From the NCBI GenBank assembly GCA_947487385.1, contig CANKWU010000002.1, positions 55,050 through 119,049 on the forward strand: a DNA stretch of 64,000 nucleotides, written 5' to 3'. A program made the translations under genes and the position numbers. A model generated the notes under the pieces. It had not been told where the DNA came from. It saw nothing but the letters and a program-made list of their open reading frames with translations, and did not search any database. This document shows positions 45,510-56,826 of the stretch, piece after piece (the stretch's first letter is position 1; the number at the start of each line of letters is the position of its first letter). The stretch comes from Spartobacteria bacterium (GTDB lineage Bacteria; Verrucomicrobiota; Verrucomicrobiia; Chthoniobacterales; UBA6821).

Positions 45510-45617
45510 GTTGTTTTCTTCCTTTCCGATTGAAGATTGTATGAGAAGCGGCGAATTATCTTGTGAGATATTTTACTTCGCATACTGGGTAGTCGTAGTA
45601 CACTTATCGCATTGCTT

Positions 45618-46457
45618 ATGAAAAAAACTTCAAAAGCTTCCCCCTCATCCACCCGAGAGCGTATCGCGATCGTCGACAGCCAGGCATCCAGTCGGATTGG
45701 ACTTTCCCATTTCATCAAAAAGATAGGCCGCTGGGATGTAGCCTGGGCCAGTGCAACAGCCGAAGAAGCCTTGGAAAAAATAGCCAGGGACTTCCCAGAA
45801 CTCATGATTCTGGAAATTCAACTTCCAGGAAAAGACGGACTTGAACTCATTAAGCACCTGATGCCGCTTTATCCCGATCTAAAGATTCTTGTGCATTCAG
45901 CTCACAGTGAGGAGTTCTATGCCGAGCGGTGCCTTCGGGCAGGAGCGATGGGGTACATGCACAAGATGGATCCCATAGGGAATTTTGAGAATGCTGTGAA
46001 GAAGGTGCTCCGTGGAGAACTCTATTTCAATCCCCGCCTTGCATCTCAGGCTCTTCACTCACTGATCCAGCATGCTGAAACGATGAAGGGGAATGATCAT
46101 AACCTTCATAATCTCACTGACCGGGAACTTGAGGTCATGATCCTCATGGCCCAAGGTCACTCCTGCCAGGACAGTGCGGACAAACTTCACATCAGTCCCA
46201 GGACGGTTCAGGTGCACCGCAATAACATCAGGTTGAAGATCGGCTTGGAGAGCGCCCTACAACTCCATGCTTACGCCGTGCGTTTTTATGGAGAGAACTC
46301 CATTAATCAAGGTCATGGCATCGAGACAGTGAGCATCAATCCGGCAGAGACTAATCAAGGAGTATTCAAAGATTCTGCTCCTCAGAAAAAATCCACCGCG
46401 AAAGCCCCCTCTACCTTGACCATGAAGTTGTCAAAGCATCGATTCGGCGTGTCGTAG
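45618..46457 (+). CDS. NarL/FixJ-type response regulator (REC + LuxR HTH) with atypical receiver
   Basis: REC-like N-terminus, C-terminal LTDRELEVMILMAQGHSCQDSADKLHISPRTVQVHRNNIRLKI. Confidence 0.88.
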   Translation: MKKTSKASPSSTRERIAIVDSQASSRIGLSHFIKKIGRWDVAWASATAEEALEKIARDFPELMILEIQLPGKDGLELIKHLMPLYPDLKILVHSAHSEEFYAERCLRAGAMGYMHKMDPIGNFENAVKKVLRGELYFNPRLASQALHSLIQHAETMKGNDHNLHNLTDRELEVMILMAQGHSCQDSADKLHISPRTVQVHRNNIRLKIGLESALQLHAYAVRFYGENSINQGHGIETVSINPAETNQGVFKDSAPQKKSTAKAPSTLTMKLSKHRFGVS

Positions 46458-46538: not shown

Positions 46539-46622
46539 GCTATGACTAAGAAGTTTACTTAGTCTTATCTAAGCAATACCACATCTATCGAAAACACTCC
46601 TTAAGGGACATTATTAGGGGTG

Positions 46623-47246
46623 ATGAACCCCAGCTCCTCCACACAACTCACCAACCTAAAAGATCGGGCTAGTCGGGCAATGCCACCCGAAGTAAACAAC
46701 GGACAGCTGCACGATCACCAACTCCAAAACGTTTTAGACAAAGCGTTTCGTTCCGCAGAAGGCCTCTTCCCGATCGGTTACCAGATCAGCGTTATCTGCA
46801 TCTACCCCTCCGTCGAGGGAGGAAAGCTTGCAAAGCATTGGCTGGAGACCGCCTTCGATAATTTAGCCCCTCACACGAGCACCTGTATTGAGTATTACAA
46901 TGTATCTATTTTAGGCCATGATGGCATCTGCTGGGAGCATGTCATCGAGCGTATTCGGCTTGATGTGATCCTACTGGTGAGTGATGGAACTGGCCAACTC
47001 ATCGCCGGATTACGAAATTCGCTGAAGGATCTTATCGCCAAGTCGTGTAACGGCAAGAAACCCCTCGTGATCTTCCGCGACATCGAGCTTCAGCCAAGCA
47101 TCAACACGAGTGTTCTGCTCGACTACATTTCGTCCCTCACGAACCGGAATCAATGTCAGCTTAATGCAATGACCGGTGATGGGGCCCCGATCCCGAGCTT
47201 CCGTCATCCCCGTTACCTTCTCAAGGGGCGCAGGCATCACGAGTAA
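46623..47246 (+). CDS. Orphan hypothetical protein between regulator and EPS operon
   Basis: About 207-aa ORF with an alpha/beta-looking core (YQISVICIYPSVEGG...DVILLVSDGTGQLIAGLRNSLKDLIAK...KKPLVIFRDIEL). Confidence 0.6.
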   Translation: MNPSSSTQLTNLKDRASRAMPPEVNNGQLHDHQLQNVLDKAFRSAEGLFPIGYQISVICIYPSVEGGKLAKHWLETAFDNLAPHTSTCIEYYNVSILGHDGICWEHVIERIRLDVILLVSDGTGQLIAGLRNSLKDLIAKSCNGKKPLVIFRDIELQPSINTSVLLDYISSLTNRNQCQLNAMTGDGAPIPSFRHPRYLLKGRRHHE

Positions 47247-47263
47247 CTATTACTCATTTCTTC

Positions 47264-48253
47264 ATGAATATTTTCATCACCGGGGGGGCAGGGTTCATCG
47301 GATCTCACCTTGCGGAACATCACCTGGCAAAGGGAGATTCCGTCACAGCCGTTGATGACCTGAGCACAGGCAGCTTAGAGGTTTTTTCAGGCTTCGATTG
47401 CTCGCGTCTTTTCTTCGAGAAAGGCGATATCCTGACATGGCAGGGATTGGAGTCTGCCGTGGCCCAAGCCGACCGCATTTACCACATGGCGGCCGTGGTG
47501 GGGATGTTCCGCGTTCTCAAAGAACCGGTGGAAGTGACGCGGGTGAATGTCCTCGGCACGGAGCGGCTTCTGGACTCTGTTTCCAAAAGGGATCACCTCC
47601 CCGAGTTGGTCGTAACCTCTAGTTCTTCGGTTTATGGCCATACCCGTGCTGAGGAACTTATCGAAGGAATCGATCTGGTCTATTCGCCAGAGAAGGGTGG
47701 CCTCACCGCCTATGCTCTCAGCAAACTGACAAACGAAGTTCAGGCGATGGCCTACCGCCAGATCCATGGACTTCCGGTTTCCATTCCCCGCCTCTTCAAT
47801 GCCGTCGGTCCCAGGCAGTCTGGCAACTACGGCTTTGTCCTTCCCCGATTCATCAAACAGGCCCTCTCTGGAGTTCCCCTCACCGTCTATGGAGACGGCA
47901 CCCAGACGCGCTCCTTCTGCGACGTTCGTGACACGGTCGCGGCCCTCGACATGCTTGCGGGGGAACCGGAGGCATGGGGCACGCCCGTCAATATCGGCAA
48001 TCCCAGGGAGATTACGATCCTTGATCTTGCCAGAATGGTGATCGAGCGCTCCGGTAGCAACTCATCGATCCAATTCATTCCCTTCGAGCAAGGATACGGT
48101 TCCCAATTCTGGCAGATCACACAGAGGCGACCATCCGTCGATCTCCTGCAAAAACTCACTCCATTCAAGCATGTCTGGACACTTGAAAAAACAATCGACG
48201 ACTTGATCACCCGAAACCGGGTCAACGTGGTCCCCGACGGAAGACTTCTATGA
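47264..48253 (+). CDS. NAD-dependent epimerase/dehydratase (nucleotide-sugar, extended SDR)
   Basis: MNIFITGGAGFIGSHLAEHHLAKGDSVTAVDDLSTG, SSSSVYGHT, YALSKLTNE, RLFNAVGPRQSGNYGFVLPRFIKQAL. Confidence 0.92.
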   Translation: MNIFITGGAGFIGSHLAEHHLAKGDSVTAVDDLSTGSLEVFSGFDCSRLFFEKGDILTWQGLESAVAQADRIYHMAAVVGMFRVLKEPVEVTRVNVLGTERLLDSVSKRDHLPELVVTSSSSVYGHTRAEELIEGIDLVYSPEKGGLTAYALSKLTNEVQAMAYRQIHGLPVSIPRLFNAVGPRQSGNYGFVLPRFIKQALSGVPLTVYGDGTQTRSFCDVRDTVAALDMLAGEPEAWGTPVNIGNPREITILDLARMVIERSGSNSSIQFIPFEQGYGSQFWQITQRRPSVDLLQKLTPFKHVWTLEKTIDDLITRNRVNVVPDGRLL

Positions 48254-49524
48254 TAACGACACGCCCATTTCGTATTCCATCTATTCACCTTTTATTCGCT
48301 CTTCTCCTGCTCATAACAGTGCCTGCGGGGCTGCATGGCGAAGGTAACACTCCGCTCTGGAGTGTCGGAGAGACCCTCCCCATGGAGGACGAGTACCCGA
48401 ATGCGAATTTAAGCAACTACCAACAGGGACAGCTGGCCGAGGGACAGCAGCAGATTCTCCAGGCCCGCGAGGATTACCGTAAGGCGCTTGCGAGCAATCC
48501 CGAACAGAAGGACCTCCGAGAACACTATTCCTGGTTCCTCTATGCCAACGGCTACCATGATAAGGAATGCCTTCACCTGCTGGAGCAGTCACTTCCCGAT
48601 GCCACCGATCCGACCAGGATCTTCAATGCCATTGTCGAAGTGAGGAACGAACTCCGCCTGCCTGCCACCCCTCTCAGAAAGCCTCCGGGTGTACTTCAGA
48701 AAAAAACTATAACACCACATCGTACTGTCATTGCCGAGACCTCCACCGGTGAATCCTTGAAGAAGGTCGAGAAGGAGGAGATCGAAACAGTCGAGAGTTT
48801 CCGCCACTGGATCTTCATCCCTTACTACGATTACAGCTTCTTCAACGATGGTCGTCAGGGATGGCAGGAGGAAGACGCAACCCTCATCTATCGTGTCAAC
48901 CAGCGCCTGGCACTCGGAGCCGAGATCGACATCATGCAGCGCCCCCCCTCGGGAACGAATACCTACTATAGCGCTCTCGCCTCCTACTACCTCTGGAAAT
49001 GGCTCGAGGTTCACGGAAAGATCTCCATCTGTCCCGATCCAACCTTCCTTGCACTGCAGGTCTACACAGGAGGATTCATCTACCAGGCCGCTCCGCGCCT
49101 CGGACTCCTGCTCGACTACCAGCGTTACAACTTTGTCCAAGGACCCCTCGACCAGATCAATCCTGGCATAGCGTATAACTTCACGGACACAACCTCACTG
49201 GTGCTGCGTTATGTCCGCGGATGGGCCTTCAACAATCTCGAGTACAACTACTACTCGGCAGCTCTGAATCTTGGTCTTCCCGGCAACCGTAGGCTCTCGA
49301 TGGCTTTTGCCTATGGCACGGATCCTGATACCCAAGTCGGGGCGGACGGCAGCAATGTCAGCAGTCTGAGTCCCGCCTACACCTATTCCCTCTTCTTCAC
49401 CCAGCCTATCACACGCGATCTGAGTCTCTTCACCGGCGTGCAGTACATCTACCGCCTCACCCAGAACAACTCCCCACTATACCAGCAACTCACTCCGACC
49501 CTGGGCCTTTCGATGAAATTCTAA
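48250..49524 (+). CDS. TPR-like N-terminus plus YaiO-like outer-membrane beta-barrel protein
   Basis: Signal peptide, TPR-like segment ILQAREDYRKALASNPEQKDLREHYSWFLYANGYHD, C-terminal alternating aromatic beta-strands ending LTPTLGLSMKF. Confidence 0.72.
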   Translation: MITTRPFRIPSIHLLFALLLLITVPAGLHGEGNTPLWSVGETLPMEDEYPNANLSNYQQGQLAEGQQQILQAREDYRKALASNPEQKDLREHYSWFLYANGYHDKECLHLLEQSLPDATDPTRIFNAIVEVRNELRLPATPLRKPPGVLQKKTITPHRTVIAETSTGESLKKVEKEEIETVESFRHWIFIPYYDYSFFNDGRQGWQEEDATLIYRVNQRLALGAEIDIMQRPPSGTNTYYSALASYYLWKWLEVHGKISICPDPTFLALQVYTGGFIYQAAPRLGLLLDYQRYNFVQGPLDQINPGIAYNFTDTTSLVLRYVRGWAFNNLEYNYYSAALNLGLPGNRRLSMAFAYGTDPDTQVGADGSNVSSLSPAYTYSLFFTQPITRDLSLFTGVQYIYRLTQNNSPLYQQLTPTLGLSMKF

Positions 49525-49526
49525 TC

Positions 49527-50600
49527 ATGAACCTGCTCACCATTGTCACCATTACGGCTACGATCCTCACGCTGCTCAGCCTTCTCCTGCTGATTTTCAT
49601 CGTTGGGATGAGAGTTTTCACCGATCGGAGCATTGACCATCAGGCTGACTTTCTAAAGCGAGCTATCCCTCTGATCAAGGCGTACCTTCGAGGAGAAGCT
49701 ACCTTCGAGATCGTCGCCCCGATCCTGCTCAAAGATCAGCACCTAGCACTGCTGATCCTGATGGAGCTGGCGGATTCCCTTGATGAAAGAGAGCGAGAAA
49801 AACTCCATCCCCTCTTCATTTCATTACCCAAGTTTAGGAATGAATCGCATTCGCTGAAAAGCCGCCGTTGGCAAACACGCCTCCATGCTGCCGAGCACCT
49901 TGGTTATCTCGGCGACGACGCCGCACTTCCTGCGCTGATGACAGCTCTCCGGGATGATGTGGTTGGAGTTCGTTTTGCAGCTTCGCGATCCTTGGTCCAA
50001 CTTGGCTGTGATAAGGCAGTCGAACCGATACTCAGATCTCTAGACATCCCTGGGGAGGTCTCTCAGAGGCGCGTTGCCGAGATCATCTCCGCACTCGGCC
50101 CACGGGCGATCGATCCCATTCAGAATGTGATGAATGGCCCCGACTATGACGATTCTGTGCTCTCCATTGCCGCCCGAATCGCTGGAATCCTCCGTTCCGA
50201 GAAGGCCATCCCCTCTCTCCGCCATCTGCTGAATCATCAGGTGGCGAATGTCCGCCTTAATGCCGTTCGTTCACTCTCCTCCATCGGCGATCCTAGCGTG
50301 ATTGAGGACATTGCGTCTCTCGGCGAAGATCCCTCCTGGGAAGTCCGCAGTACCGTCATGAGGGCGCTGGGAAAACTGCACGCTTCCGAGCATATCCCCC
50401 TCTTGCTCCAGGGACTTTCCGATCAGGAATGGTGGGTCCGCCACAATGCTGGATCCGCTCTCATTGCTATCGGTACTCAGGGGATCACCGCACTCAAGGA
50501 GGCCGTCGATCATCACACGGATGCCTACGGGCGCGACATGAGTCGCCAGATTCTTCAACAAAACGGTCTTCTCAAACCGATCTCAGAGGTACTTCCATGA
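49527..50600 (+). CDS. HEAT-repeat protein with N-terminal TM
   Basis: N-terminal TM followed by repeats such as GDDAALPALMTALRDDVVGVRFAASRSLVQLGCDKAVEPIL and SLRHLLNHQVANVRLNAVRSLSSIGDPSVIEDI. Confidence 0.87.
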   Translation: MNLLTIVTITATILTLLSLLLLIFIVGMRVFTDRSIDHQADFLKRAIPLIKAYLRGEATFEIVAPILLKDQHLALLILMELADSLDEREREKLHPLFISLPKFRNESHSLKSRRWQTRLHAAEHLGYLGDDAALPALMTALRDDVVGVRFAASRSLVQLGCDKAVEPILRSLDIPGEVSQRRVAEIISALGPRAIDPIQNVMNGPDYDDSVLSIAARIAGILRSEKAIPSLRHLLNHQVANVRLNAVRSLSSIGDPSVIEDIASLGEDPSWEVRSTVMRALGKLHASEHIPLLLQGLSDQEWWVRHNAGSALIAIGTQGITALKEAVDHHTDAYGRDMSRQILQQNGLLKPISEVLP

Positions 50601-52018
50601 ATACAATCCACATCCTTCTCTGGCTGATTCTGGCCTACTACATCACCCTGCACGCGATCTACCTCCTACTCGTGCTTCTCGGGGCAACGCAGGTGCGGCG
50701 CTACCATCGCGGGATCACCTTCGCAGAGTTCCGGAGGATCGGGGAATCCCCGCTCAGCATGCCGGTATCACTCATCATCCCATGTTACAACGAGTCGGCG
50801 ATCATCGTTGAGACGATTAGCAATGCCCTTCGCTTGAACTATCCACAGTTCGAGGTGATCGTTGTCAGCGACGGATCAACAGACGGAAGCATCGATATTC
50901 TCAAGAAGAGCTTCCATCTCCGCAGAGTGGACCGCTTTGGCAGGAGACAGATCGAGACAAGGGAAATTCAGGGCGTCTATGAATCCTCAGATCATTCTAA
51001 TCTCGTCGTTATCGAGAAAGTGAACGGACGCAGGGCAGATGCCATCAACGCCGCCGTGACATTATCACGCTATCCTCTTCTCTGTATCATTGATGCCGAC
51101 TGTGTGCTGGAAACAGACGCTCTACTTCACATGGCGCGACCCTTCCTGAGCGACGTCAGTATTGCCGCCGTGGCAGGTATCGTCCGTCCCTCCAATGGTC
51201 TCAGCATCGTCGATGGGGAGATTCTTCACAATGCCCTGCCCAAGACCCTGCTGGGAATGAATCAGGAGGTCGAGTACGCGCGGAGTTTCCAGTGGGCGAG
51301 GATCGGTCTTTGCAGGTTGAAAAGCATGCTCTGCATTTCCGGTGCCCTCCTTCTGATCAAGAAGACTCTCTTCGAGGAGGTCGGCGGCCCATGGCCCCAG
51401 GCAATCACCGATGACATTGAGTTCACGATGAGGCTCAATCGCCACATCCACGACAGAGAGAGGAAAGAGCATGCACGTCTCGTCTTTGTGCCTGATGCCG
51501 TTTGCTACACGGAGATCCCCGAGAAAATCGGCCAGTATGCCTCCCAGAGGAATCGCTGGCAGCGAGGCACCATCCAAGCGCTCCTTCGCAATGCCAGCAT
51601 GATCTTCAATCCCCGCTACGGCATGACCGGTCTCTTCGGCATGCCCTTCTTTGTCGTCTTCGAAGCGCTCGCTGCCATCGTCGAACTCTCTGCTTGGATC
51701 CTGATGGTAGTCTGTTTGGTGCTCGGGATCGCCAGCGGCTTTGAAATCATCGCAATGATCTTTCTGGCCTATATCCTAGGAGTCTTCCTATCTCTTACGG
51801 CCGTCCTGCTGACCGAATCAACCCGCCTTCGTGCGGTAAACTGGCGCGACTTCTGGCGCCTCATCCTTGCCATCCTTCTCGATAACCTCGGGTTCCATCA
51901 GTTCCACCTCATTATCCGGGTCATCGGCACCTTCCAATACCTGTTTGGTCGCAAGGATCTCGGTGCAGTCATGTCCAGAAATGGCATTAATTCATCCCTA
52001 ACGACACAAGCCCCATGA
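50597..52018 (+). CDS. Processive-type family-2 membrane glycosyltransferase
   Basis: PVSLIIPCYNESAIIVETISNALRLNYPQFEVIVVSDGSTD, IIDADCVLE, AITDDIEF, QRNRWQRG (QxxRW), N- and C-terminal TM helices; internal ATG 50597 gives ATGA overlap. Confidence 0.92.
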   Translation: MNTIHILLWLILAYYITLHAIYLLLVLLGATQVRRYHRGITFAEFRRIGESPLSMPVSLIIPCYNESAIIVETISNALRLNYPQFEVIVVSDGSTDGSIDILKKSFHLRRVDRFGRRQIETREIQGVYESSDHSNLVVIEKVNGRRADAINAAVTLSRYPLLCIIDADCVLETDALLHMARPFLSDVSIAAVAGIVRPSNGLSIVDGEILHNALPKTLLGMNQEVEYARSFQWARIGLCRLKSMLCISGALLLIKKTLFEEVGGPWPQAITDDIEFTMRLNRHIHDRERKEHARLVFVPDAVCYTEIPEKIGQYASQRNRWQRGTIQALLRNASMIFNPRYGMTGLFGMPFFVVFEALAAIVELSAWILMVVCLVLGIASGFEIIAMIFLAYILGVFLSLTAVLLTESTRLRAVNWRDFWRLILAILLDNLGFHQFHLIIRVIGTFQYLFGRKDLGAVMSRNGINSSLTTQAP

Positions 52019-53319
52019 TCCCCAAACCCTCAGATTCTCTTTATGAAGTCGCAGTCGTTGGTCTCGGCTATGTCGGCATTCCACTTGCAGTTGGCTTTGC
52101 CGAGGCCGGATGCCGCACATTGGGTTTCGACCTCAATCAGGAGCGTGTACGGGAACTTCAGTCCGGACTCTCTCCATTGACGACAGTCCCGTCCGATAGG
52201 ATCAATGCAGTCACTGGAAAACAGCTCCTCACCTTTACGGGGAACAAAGAGGACCTTGCCCGGAGTGAAGCAATCATCATCTGCGTTCCCACTCCTCTTA
52301 GGGAGCATCTTGATCCTGACATCACATTCATCCTCTCGGCTGGTGAGGAGATCGCTCCAGTGCTCAGAAAAGGCATGCTTGTCTCACTGGAATCCAGCAC
52401 CTATCCCGGAACAACCCGCGAGGACCTTCGTCAAGTCCTTGAGAAGAAATCAGGCCTCAAGGCCGGCGTTGACTTCGCGCTATGCTTCTCACCCGAGCGT
52501 GAGGATCCGGGCAATGAGAAGAGTGTTCTCAAGCAGATGCCCAAGGTTGTGGGTGGGCTCACTCCCGATTGTCTCGAGCGAGCCGTGGAACTCTACTCGC
52601 ATGCCGTCAGCAAAGTGGTCCCCGTCAGCAGTTGCGACACAGCCGAGGCAGTGAAGCTCACGGAGAATATTTTCCGCTTCATCAACATCGCCCTTGTGAA
52701 CGAGCTCAAGCGCATCTACACCCCCATGGGAATCGACATCTGGGAGGTCATCGATGCGGCGAAGACAAAGCCCTTTGGATTCATGCCATTCTATCCCGGT
52801 CCGGGAGTCGGAGGTCACTGCATCCCGCTTGATCCCTACTACCTGACCTGGAAGGCCCGTGAGTTCAATCTCGATACACGCTTTATCCAGATTGCTGGCC
52901 AGATCAACCGGGGAATGCCCTACTATGTGGTCAGTCACTTGGCGGAGGGACTCAATTCACTTTCCCTGCCGATTCAGGGCGTTCGGATCCTGATCCTTGG
53001 GCTCTCCTACAAACCGAATATCCCGGATGACAGAGAGTCACCCTCTTATGACATCATGAATATTCTCAAGGAGAAGGGGGCTGAGTTGGACTACTACGAT
53101 CCCTTCATCCCGGTCATCGAACATCATCCCGGTCCTCAATGGGCAGGCCGTCACTCCATCACTTGGAATCCAGAAACACTCGCTAGCTATACTGCGGCCG
53201 TCGTCTGCACCCCTCACAAAGGAGTCAATTATTCCGAACTCGCCGAGCATATCCCCCTCATCGTCGACGCATGTAATATTGTCCCCAAGAACAGCAAAGC
53301 CCACGTCATCGCTGCCTAG
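52015..53319 (+). CDS. Nucleotide-sugar dehydrogenase (UDP-glucose/UDP-HexNAc 6-dehydrogenase family)
   Basis: VAVVGLGYVGIPLAVGFAEAGCRTLGFDL, CFSPEREDPGNEKSVLKQMPKVVGG, PGPGVGGHCIPLDPYYLTWKA. Confidence 0.94.
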   Translation: MIPKPSDSLYEVAVVGLGYVGIPLAVGFAEAGCRTLGFDLNQERVRELQSGLSPLTTVPSDRINAVTGKQLLTFTGNKEDLARSEAIIICVPTPLREHLDPDITFILSAGEEIAPVLRKGMLVSLESSTYPGTTREDLRQVLEKKSGLKAGVDFALCFSPEREDPGNEKSVLKQMPKVVGGLTPDCLERAVELYSHAVSKVVPVSSCDTAEAVKLTENIFRFINIALVNELKRIYTPMGIDIWEVIDAAKTKPFGFMPFYPGPGVGGHCIPLDPYYLTWKAREFNLDTRFIQIAGQINRGMPYYVVSHLAEGLNSLSLPIQGVRILILGLSYKPNIPDDRESPSYDIMNILKEKGAELDYYDPFIPVIEHHPGPQWAGRHSITWNPETLASYTAAVVCTPHKGVNYSELAEHIPLIVDACNIVPKNSKAHVIAA

Positions 53320-53453
53320 ACTATTTGGAAAAGATGGAACAATCTCCTGCCCTTGAATTCTTTCCGTTCCTGAGTTCCATAGTAATCTCTTGCTCCTGAT
53401 TTCCTAAAAATGGGGAACCTAGCGAATAAAGAACTCAGGAACTCAAGAAATGA

Positions 53454-54272
53454 ATGCCGATGAAACAATGGAGACTCATCATTCTGTTTCTTTTCATGAT
53501 TTCTTCATCACTCATGTCGGGTGAGTACTTCGAGGGGTTTGATAACCCAGGGAAGCCCCCTGAGCGTGATGGTATTCGCTGGGGATACACCGACGAACTG
53601 ACTCCTGTCTCTGGTTGGACATCCATCATCCCCGGAGACGGATTTGCCCACCTTTCCGTCACGAGTCATTCGCTGGGCAAGAAAATCAAACGCCTCCCCG
53701 ACGGTGGCGATTTCCTTCCATTTCAGACGCTCTCGCTAGGTCCGATCGGGAGTAACCACCGGATAAGCATCCGGGCAAAGAATATGGTTGTTCCTGGTGT
53801 CGCAGGCGTCCTCTTCACTTATCGGGAGAAAGCCAAGGTCGATGAGATCGACATCGAGATTACGGCGGACGATACCCAATCACCGATGACAGGACATCCC
53901 ACCGGCACCAATGGGGGTTGGACAGACATCAGACTCAACACATGGGCAAACGCCATCGGTGACGCTGGCAATAGCGGCGAATCACTCAGCCCCTCGCGAA
54001 GCATTCGCATTGCGATCCATGATGCTGAAGGGAAGAAAATCACCCATCGCGATGATCGTTTCCATATTTACTCGATCGAGTGGCGGCAGAAATCGGTGGT
54101 GTTCTACATCGACGGGATCCAGCAGGGGGCTATCGATGATGTGGTACCCGATTACCCCTCCATGGTTATCTTTGGAATGAGACGCATGCCTTGGGCGGGA
54201 AGACCCGATTGGTCTGGAAAAAAGACGATCTTGGTTGACTGGATCGACATCGAACCACTGGAAAAGGATTGA
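53454..54272 (+). CDS. Secreted glycoside hydrolase family 16-like protein
   Basis: Signal peptide; catalytic-type EIDIE motif (53844-53858) and RFHIYSIEWRQKSVVFYIDGIQQG. Confidence 0.83.
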   Translation: MPMKQWRLIILFLFMISSSLMSGEYFEGFDNPGKPPERDGIRWGYTDELTPVSGWTSIIPGDGFAHLSVTSHSLGKKIKRLPDGGDFLPFQTLSLGPIGSNHRISIRAKNMVVPGVAGVLFTYREKAKVDEIDIEITADDTQSPMTGHPTGTNGGWTDIRLNTWANAIGDAGNSGESLSPSRSIRIAIHDAEGKKITHRDDRFHIYSIEWRQKSVVFYIDGIQQGAIDDVVPDYPSMVIFGMRRMPWAGRPDWSGKKTILVDWIDIEPLEKD

Positions 54273-54420: not shown

Positions 54421-56826
54421 ATGACCGAAATGGTACAGGCCACTCTCTCCGGATCAGTACCTCCTCCGCCCCATCCCCGTGAAGAGGAGCGCATCGCCCG
54501 ACTGCTTGGCTACGACATTCTCGACACGGAGCGCGATGAACTCTTCGACCGTATCACCGCAATGGCCGCCGAGATCACAGGATCGCCGATTTCCCTTGTC
54601 TCGTTGGTCGACAGGAATCGGCAGTGGGTGAAGTCCAACTACGGCATCGATTTGAAGCAGAGTTCCCGTGATGACTCTTTCTGCGGTCACACCATCATGG
54701 ATGCTGATAAGCTCATGATCATTCCGGATTCGATGAAGGATCCCCGCTTTGTTCATAATCCCTTTGTCACTGGGGAGCCTCATATCCGCTTCTACGCGGG
54801 GGTCCCTCTTCAGAATGGGGATGGGCTCGCGATCGGGAGCCTCTGCGTCATCGACAGGAAGCCTCGGGAGCTAACGCCTGATCAGATCGTCTCGTTGAAG
54901 AGTCTGGCTAGGATCGTAGTGGATTACCTGGACATTCATCGTTCCAATCGTGAACTCACACGTCTTCTTCTGAGGGAGAAAGAAATCTACAGCCGCCTTC
55001 TTAACCTCTCCTCAGAGATGGCATCTTCATCGTTCACTCTGGAGCAGGCACTCCAGAGGATCATGGATCACCTTGATCCCACGCTAGGATGGCTTTCATG
55101 CCGCATCACAAACCTCATGACCCATGGGTCAGGGGGTATCCGGTTGAATCCCCTCCTCCCCCCCGACCCTGAAATCGATCAGATCTGGAGGCAGATTGAT
55201 TCCCATCCCACAAAACCACTCCATGATGGAAAGAAGACGGCCTTTATCTCCACCGGCATCACGGCCCCCCAGTATGCCTATCTTGCGATACCAATTAGGA
55301 ACCGAGGCAAGCTTCAGGCCAAGATTGAAATGATCTATCCTGATCACCGCAAGATGGACTCGCGGATCAAGGAAGTGTTCGACATCATGGCATCGAATCT
55401 CGCGATTGTTGCTGAGAGAGAGATTGCCAACATGGAACTCCAGCACCGCGCCGTCCATGACGCCCTGACCGGAGCGGTGAGCAGGACGCTCTTCCTAGAG
55501 GAGCTTCAGAAGACCATCTCAAAAACCGATTCGTTCCATCCCGATACCGCACTTCTCTTTCTTGATCTTGATGGGTTCAAGGATGTGAATGACAACTTCG
55601 GCCACCAGATCGGCGATCGTCTTCTTATCGAGGTCACAGAAAGACTCCGACACCTCAGCCGTGAAGAGGATATTCTCGGACGGCTGAGTGGCGACGAGTT
55701 TGTCCTTCTGGTACGTCACCTTGATATCCAACAAGATCTGGAATCGCTGCTCAAACGGATCCAGAGACATATCTCCCATCCCTACATGCTCGGTGATCTG
55801 GAGATCAGGATCACCTGCAGCATCGGTGCGGCGATTCTGGACCGAAACGATCTCACCACACCCGAACTCCTTCGACGCGCCGAGGAGTCAATGTATCTAG
55901 TCAAGCATGGGGTGAGGAACGGGTACTGCATCGCCACACCGGACATCATTCGGGATTTCAAGAACCGCCTCGATCTCGACCGCAATATCCACGAAGCTGT
56001 CTATCAAAAACGCCTACTGCTCCATTTTCAGCCCATTGTGGAGATCGAAACCGGAAGAATCTGCTCTGCGGAGGCACTCCTCAGGGTGATAAACAAGGAT
56101 GGTTCCGTTCTCGCAGCCTTTAACATCATCCCCTCAATGCAGCGCATCCGCCTCATGGCTGAAGTTGATGAATGGGTCTTCGCTGAGTCCGTCAGGCTCC
56201 TCCAGCAACACATGAGAATATTCGAGACGATTCCCGGATTCCGACTTTCTCTTAATGTGAGCCCAAGCATCCTCATGACCCATGGATTCGCCACCCTCTC
56301 CTTGAATCGCCTGAAGACAGCGGGTGTCTCACCCACAATGTTTCGATTTGAGATCATCGAGAACCATCTGGATATGGGCAACGCCTCATTGTTTGAAAAT
56401 ATTACTTTCTTCCGAGAAGCCGGTGTGGAGATCGCAATCGATGACTTCGGGACAGGCTATAGCAATCTTCAGCACCTGATCTCCATCCCCTGCGACACGC
56501 TCAAGATCGATCGCATGTTTATTAAAGTAATTCCTTCGGGAGAGGCAAAAAAGATCCAGCTCCTGACCGCAATGATTAAATTGGGAAAAAACCTCGGTTA
56601 CTCCTTGATCGCCGAGGGGATCGAGCATCAGGAACAAGCCGATCAACTTCTCTCACTCGGTTGTGAGTACGGGCAGGGATACCTCTACGGGAGGCCGATG
56701 GAGATAGAGCGCTTCCTTGAGCACATCGTGATGCATACCCCAAACATCCTCCCTCTTTCCAAGCAGCACTCCAGTATTCAGGAATTTGAAGTAACACCAA
56801 CATACGCCCTGCCATCTAAGACTTGA
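54421..56826 (+). CDS. GAF-GGDEF-EAL c-di-GMP signalling protein
   Basis: N-terminal GAF; LSGDEF (SGDEF 55687-55701); EAL (56071-56079), DDFGTGYSN, LKIDR, AEGIE, GCEYGQGYLYGRPM. Confidence 0.94.
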   Translation: MTEMVQATLSGSVPPPPHPREEERIARLLGYDILDTERDELFDRITAMAAEITGSPISLVSLVDRNRQWVKSNYGIDLKQSSRDDSFCGHTIMDADKLMIIPDSMKDPRFVHNPFVTGEPHIRFYAGVPLQNGDGLAIGSLCVIDRKPRELTPDQIVSLKSLARIVVDYLDIHRSNRELTRLLLREKEIYSRLLNLSSEMASSSFTLEQALQRIMDHLDPTLGWLSCRITNLMTHGSGGIRLNPLLPPDPEIDQIWRQIDSHPTKPLHDGKKTAFISTGITAPQYAYLAIPIRNRGKLQAKIEMIYPDHRKMDSRIKEVFDIMASNLAIVAEREIANMELQHRAVHDALTGAVSRTLFLEELQKTISKTDSFHPDTALLFLDLDGFKDVNDNFGHQIGDRLLIEVTERLRHLSREEDILGRLSGDEFVLLVRHLDIQQDLESLLKRIQRHISHPYMLGDLEIRITCSIGAAILDRNDLTTPELLRRAEESMYLVKHGVRNGYCIATPDIIRDFKNRLDLDRNIHEAVYQKRLLLHFQPIVEIETGRICSAEALLRVINKDGSVLAAFNIIPSMQRIRLMAEVDEWVFAESVRLLQQHMRIFETIPGFRLSLNVSPSILMTHGFATLSLNRLKTAGVSPTMFRFEIIENHLDMGNASLFENITFFREAGVEIAIDDFGTGYSNLQHLISIPCDTLKIDRMFIKVIPSGEAKKIQLLTAMIKLGKNLGYSLIAEGIEHQEQADQLLSLGCEYGQGYLYGRPMEIERFLEHIVMHTPNILPLSKQHSSIQEFEVTPTYALPSKT

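Follow-up and report, generated by a model that had tools for sequence, protein, structure and literature searches.

In a 64,000-nucleotide stretch of a Spartobacteria bacterium genome (contig CANKWU010000002.1, positions 55,050 to 119,049; here called the window), we analyzed a compact operon at positions 47,264 to 54,272. It encodes an epimerase-like enzyme, an outer-membrane barrel protein, a HEAT-repeat protein, a glycosyltransferase family 2 (GT2) enzyme, a dehydrogenase, and a glycoside hydrolase family 16 (GH16) enzyme. The host genome is 2.05 Mb and 94% complete. We read this locus, with a probability of about 0.72, as an operon for synthase-dependent polysaccharide production, built around a HEAT-GT2 pair that is near-obligate. 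Its likely product is a sugar polymer that is exported to the cell surface. In the mechanism we propose, the inner-membrane GT2 would, given its family motifs, polymerize a nucleotide-activated sugar and extrude the chain. The HEAT protein, anchored through a single N-terminal helix and with a cytosolic solenoid, would bind the GT2 and serve as its regulatory or assembly subunit, filling the place that PilZ or PgaD-type parts have in known systems. The protein that combines TPR-like helices with a 14-strand barrel would take the chain across the periplasm and outer membrane, while a short-chain dehydrogenase/reductase (SDR) enzyme and the dehydrogenase would supply a hexuronate-type sugar, possibly N-acetylated. 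The GH16 enzyme would then trim the polymer.

Linkage of the HEAT and synthase genes

One genome from each of 85,462 species was scanned with a GT2-only profile, and the best 80 relatives were retained. By profile search of the flanks, a HEAT open reading frame (ORF) lay directly upstream of GT2 in 72 of these 80 loci, with a 4-nt overlap in 43 of the 72 and spacings of about -20 to +46 nt in the others. The remaining eight comprised five loci at contig ends, two Nitrospira loci with HEAT ∼6 kb upstream of GT2, and one Firmicutes locus in which HEAT and GT2 are naturally fused into a single 957-aa protein. The fusion was found in nine further genomes of the same phylum (ten in total; 33 to 38% identity; one with an internal stop codon), and its N-terminal half gave a 367-column alignment to the HEAT family (hhalign probability, 98%). 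Pfam independently called HEAT_2 in 66 of 67 HEAT proteins. As a control, we searched within 1.5 kb of 29 PgaC-like GT2s from the window's phylum, Verrucomicrobiota, but outside the clade, and none had a HEAT or YaiO gene there (0/29). HEAT almost always accompanies this GT2 clade and is its near-obligate partner.

The clade was separated from the 29 out-of-clade GT2s with a Shimodaira-Hasegawa-like approximate likelihood ratio test (SH-aLRT) value of 99, obtained by a quick method. On the clade profile, members scored at least 483 bits, versus 62 to 185 bits for the out-of-clade set. Going by record titles, the 80 loci span ∼18 bacterial phyla and one archaeal metagenome-assembled genome (MAG). 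A locus recorded as a Methanomicrobia archaeon (L056) has the order receiver-HEAT-GT2 and may be a misbinned bacterial contig. In a Gemmatimonadetes locus (L082:9078-11210), the GT2 ORF continues in frame into an apparent signal peptide and barrel sequence, which could reflect a natural fusion or a lost stop codon or sequencing error. The result is a broad synthase clade, defined by sequence alone, with a near-obligate and apparently uncharacterized subunit, and the presence of HEAT predicts which of the many genes annotated as "glycosyltransferase family 2" are part of this machinery. In the literature searched, which mostly excluded subscription journals, no HEAT-GT2 system was found described; the operon probably belongs with synthase-dependent polysaccharide systems, and the HEAT-GT2 pairing is apparently undescribed.

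Of 22 family-level genomes, seven carried the HEAT gene, and these seven belong to a single genus. The order epimerase-barrel-HEAT-GT2-dehydrogenase was kept in all seven carriers, and because it was kept in seven genomes we do not attribute the five-gene block to chance. GH16 accompanied it in five of the seven (four of the six others). The same five-gene order, without GH16, was present in Rubritalea (L047). In L048, barrel-HEAT-GT2-dehydrogenase preceded genes for a GH16-like protein and a GAF-type protein, both recognized by eye from translations. Other families and classes of the window's phylum showed barrel-HEAT-GT2 or HEAT-GT2-barrel, and a YaiO barrel was encoded by 9 of 112 upstream and 6 of 95 downstream genes of clade loci. 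The preliminary description of this DNA had staked its reading on these genes recurring together elsewhere; in the neighborhoods examined, they do so in the same genus and in Rubritalea. The HEAT-GT2 pair is the core, and the epimerase, dehydrogenase, and GH16 genes are lineage add-ons. Directly before HEAT-GT2, two loci (L045:3962-6256 and L046:6360-8687) encode a 765- to 776-aa membrane protein whose sequence is shared between them; the L045 copy had no Pfam match.

Receiver genes upstream of HEAT

Across the clade loci, a receiver domain was found on 48 of the 112 upstream genes, others of which carried GGDEF, Hpt, or kinase domains; the 95 downstream genes were more mixed. Of the 61 loci with enough sequence, 46 had a same-strand receiver ORF ending within 2.3 kb on the upstream side of HEAT, compared with 6/55, 4/54, 1/53, and 1/51 in four distal control intervals of about equal size. 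This enrichment beside HEAT suggests a phosphorelay that acts through HEAT on the GT2. In a stronger form of our explanation, the receiver would dock on the HEAT solenoid and switch the GT2 directly, a proposal that we hold tentatively and at somewhat less than even odds. In addition to the enrichment itself, it is favored by receiver architecture, many being stand-alone or C-terminal after a GGDEF domain, and by the Nitrospira loci, where receiver and HEAT lie 16 to 22 nt apart despite the displaced GT2. However, gene adjacency is not binding, and neither the window nor its closest relatives (L047 to L049) have an adjacent stand-alone receiver; a LuxR-type regulator, lying further upstream, is all that the window's lineage has. 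The receiver relay may hold for most of the clade but not for the window's own lineage.

In an alternative that we favor slightly less, HEAT would serve the GT2 constitutively, in its assembly, stability, or localization, and would take no part in signaling, receivers being adjacent for other reasons. HEAT solenoids are usually binding scaffolds, and the HEAT-GT2 pair persists without a nearby receiver, both of which suit such a role; it would nonetheless leave the strong receiver enrichment unexplained. If phosphorelay control of the HEAT-GT2 pair is true, it would define a phosphorelay-gated synthase class across ∼18 phyla, Gram-negative and Gram-positive, and control by receiver and HEAT would differ from cyclic di-GMP (c-di-GMP) binding by PilZ or MshEN. 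Culturable carriers for studying receiver-controlled polysaccharide synthesis include Massilia, Mesorhizobium, Paenibacillus, Anoxybacillus, and Thermus. In four Firmicutes loci (L086, L097, L098, and L113), a protein of ∼1015 to 1033 aa is encoded just before HEAT, in the receiver's usual place; the two scanned, from L086 and L097, had no Pfam match.

Predicted synthase, exporter, and HEAT orientation

The GT2 carries DGST at residue 92, DADC at 166, TDDIE at 271, and QRNRW at 317, and with its C-terminal membrane helices it has the features of an inner-membrane enzyme with processive-type motifs. Its best curated match was the poly-N-acetylglucosamine (PNAG) synthase model TIGR03937, at 128.8 bits and under the cut-off of 422.3. 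Domain scans found neither PilZ nor MshEN in the GT2, HEAT, or barrel proteins; no search was made for an unlinked receptor encoded outside the locus. A PilZ-looking protein downstream of GT2 in L043 was considered and had no Pfam match. In the AlphaFold model of the barrel protein, TPR-like helices occupy residues 52 to 135 and 14 strands lie within residues 187 to 423, mostly at a per-residue confidence (pLDDT) of 85 to 96; the closest fold by Foldseek was OmpG. The DxD and QRNRW motifs, the lack of PilZ in the GT2, and the N-terminal TPR-like segment had all been put forward in the preliminary description, and each was borne out.

Porins being the nearest folds of the barrel, one could suppose that it is an unrelated porin and that the GT2 is non-processive, modifying a lipid or repeat unit. 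This is unlikely given the QRNRW motif and C-terminal membrane helices, the best curated match to a PNAG synthase, and the TPR-and-barrel exporter genes that flank many clade members. Certain observations do weigh against a synthase-dependent operon built on the HEAT-GT2 pair. The window barrel falls below the YaiO cut-off (TIGR04390, 22.7 bits versus 32) and has no PF19413 match; its distant relatives from L045 and L121 pass PF19413. The A2 seed GT2s were originally found via HEAT, which left the query less than wholly independent of the partner, and misbinning is possible for those records that are MAGs.

Among known systems, the operon resembles the E. coli NfrB-NfrA (phage N4 receptor) exopolysaccharide system, in which the GT2 synthase gene accompanies one for an outer-membrane barrel that contains TPRs (PMC8669469). 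Unlike the NfrB-type synthase, which has an MshEN domain on the GT2, the window GT2 is 473 aa with no extra domain and has a separate HEAT partner. The PNAG system (PgaABCD/IcaABCD) shares a GT2 nearest the PgaC model, a TPR-and-barrel exporter, and a secreted carbohydrate-active enzyme; however, the window GT2 scores far under the PgaC cut-off and has HEAT as its partner instead, and neither PgaB nor PgaD was seen among the genes neighboring it. A survey of five synthase-dependent exopolysaccharide systems (cellulose, acetylated cellulose, PNAG, alginate, and Pel; PMC7112194) describes operons likewise composed of a synthase, a TPR exporter, and modifying enzymes, but mentions neither HEAT nor YaiO. 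In the E. coli yaiO-yaiP locus, too, a GT2 gene has a YaiO-type barrel gene nearby, but no HEAT gene is annotated in that stretch. YaiP itself was rejected as a clade member, at 45.9 bits on the clade profile.

The HEAT protein matched PF13646 (HEAT_2) at 115 bits (cut-off, 27.7), and its AlphaFold model is an alpha-solenoid (pLDDT, 95.9) with a first helix of 52 residues. The model resembles designed HEAT-like repeats, which tells little about function. An N-terminal hydrophobic segment was present in 71 of 74 HEAT proteins, with a mean of 4.5 Arg/Lys in the 15 residues after it versus 0.56 before it, and 66 of the 71 showed this positive-inside bias. The pair also occurs in Gram-positive bacteria that lack an outer membrane. 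From the charge bias (by the positive-inside rule), the Gram-positive carriers, and the way the natural fusion is arranged, the membrane-anchored solenoid is predicted to lie on the cytosolic side. The preliminary description had cast HEAT, a solenoid protein whose gene lies between those for the barrel and the synthase, as a periplasmic scaffold or co-polymerase in place of a TPR scaffold; the membrane anchor and the co-polymerase half are favored, but these same three lines of evidence lead us to reject the periplasmic scaffold role, which we consider very improbable also because the barrel protein already has TPR-like helices. Its modeled N-terminal part fits the place of the periplasmic TPR scaffold.

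Operon layout, proposed sugar supply, and flanking genes

The ORFs, the ATGA start/stop overlaps at 48250, 50597, and 52015, and the 2-nt gap between the barrel stop codon (49522-49524) and the HEAT ATG were all read in the sequence as the preliminary description had given them, and its compact synthase-type operon holds up: TPR-and-barrel exporter, sugar-nucleotide genes, and GH16 are present and co-occur elsewhere. The GH16 gene starts 134 nt past the dehydrogenase gene.

Table 1. Genes of the operon and its flanks in the window
Feature	Position	Strand	Evidence
LuxR-type response regulator (receiver + GerE)	45612..46457	+	PF00072 and PF00196
208-aa protein, no assigned family	46620..47246	+	Genus-conserved upstream neighbor
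Extended SDR nucleotide-sugar epimerase/decarboxylase	47264..48253	+	PF01370 8e-46; GGAGFIG at 7, YALSK at 150
Putative outer-membrane exporter, signal peptide + TPR-like helices + 14-strand barrel (YaiO-like)	48250..49524	+	AlphaFold, Foldseek (OmpG-like)
Membrane-anchored HEAT-repeat protein (predicted)	49527..50600	+	PF13646 2e-33, AlphaFold, family charge bias
GT2 synthase, HEAT-partnered clade, 473 aa	50597..52018	+	PF13641 2.4e-22, motifs, clade SH-aLRT 99
Nucleotide-sugar 6-dehydrogenase, nearest UDP-N-acetylhexosaminuronate type	52015..53319	+	TIGR03026 381 bits (cut-off 190); GGHC at 266
GH16-family enzyme, signal-peptide-like N-terminus	53454..54272	+	PF00722 39.2 bits (cut-off 22); EIDIE at residue 131
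GAF-GGDEF-EAL protein, conserved downstream neighbor	54421..56826	+	PF01590, PF00990, PF00563

The nearest solved structures of the SDR enzyme were UDP-glucuronate decarboxylases, then epimerases. The dehydrogenase passes the nucleotide-sugar 6-dehydrogenase model and has the catalytic Cys; its nearest solved structures were 4r16 and Cap5O, and it lies nearest UDP-N-acetylmannosaminuronate and Cap5O-type enzymes, not UDP-glucose dehydrogenases. We reasonably infer from these relationships that the two enzymes supply a hexuronate-type sugar, perhaps N-acetylated. The uronic-acid-type supply proposed earlier thus stands as to the sugar-nucleotide genes, with the dehydrogenase refined to the UDP-N-acetylhexosaminuronate branch. 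The GH16 assignment proposed with it agrees with a family score above the cut-off and the catalytic ExDxE motif.

Upstream, the LuxR-type regulator gene was present in four of the six other same-genus loci and is a possible transcriptional regulator of the system, its membership being uncertain. The gene for the 208-aa protein preceded the operon in 7/7 same-genus genomes (6/6 other loci); the protein had no Pfam or NCBIfam match, no relative was seen across the 80 wider loci, and a hidden receiver was ruled out (hhalign probability, 6%). Downstream, the GAF-GGDEF-EAL gene was kept in five of the six other same-genus loci and provides a possible link to c-di-GMP.
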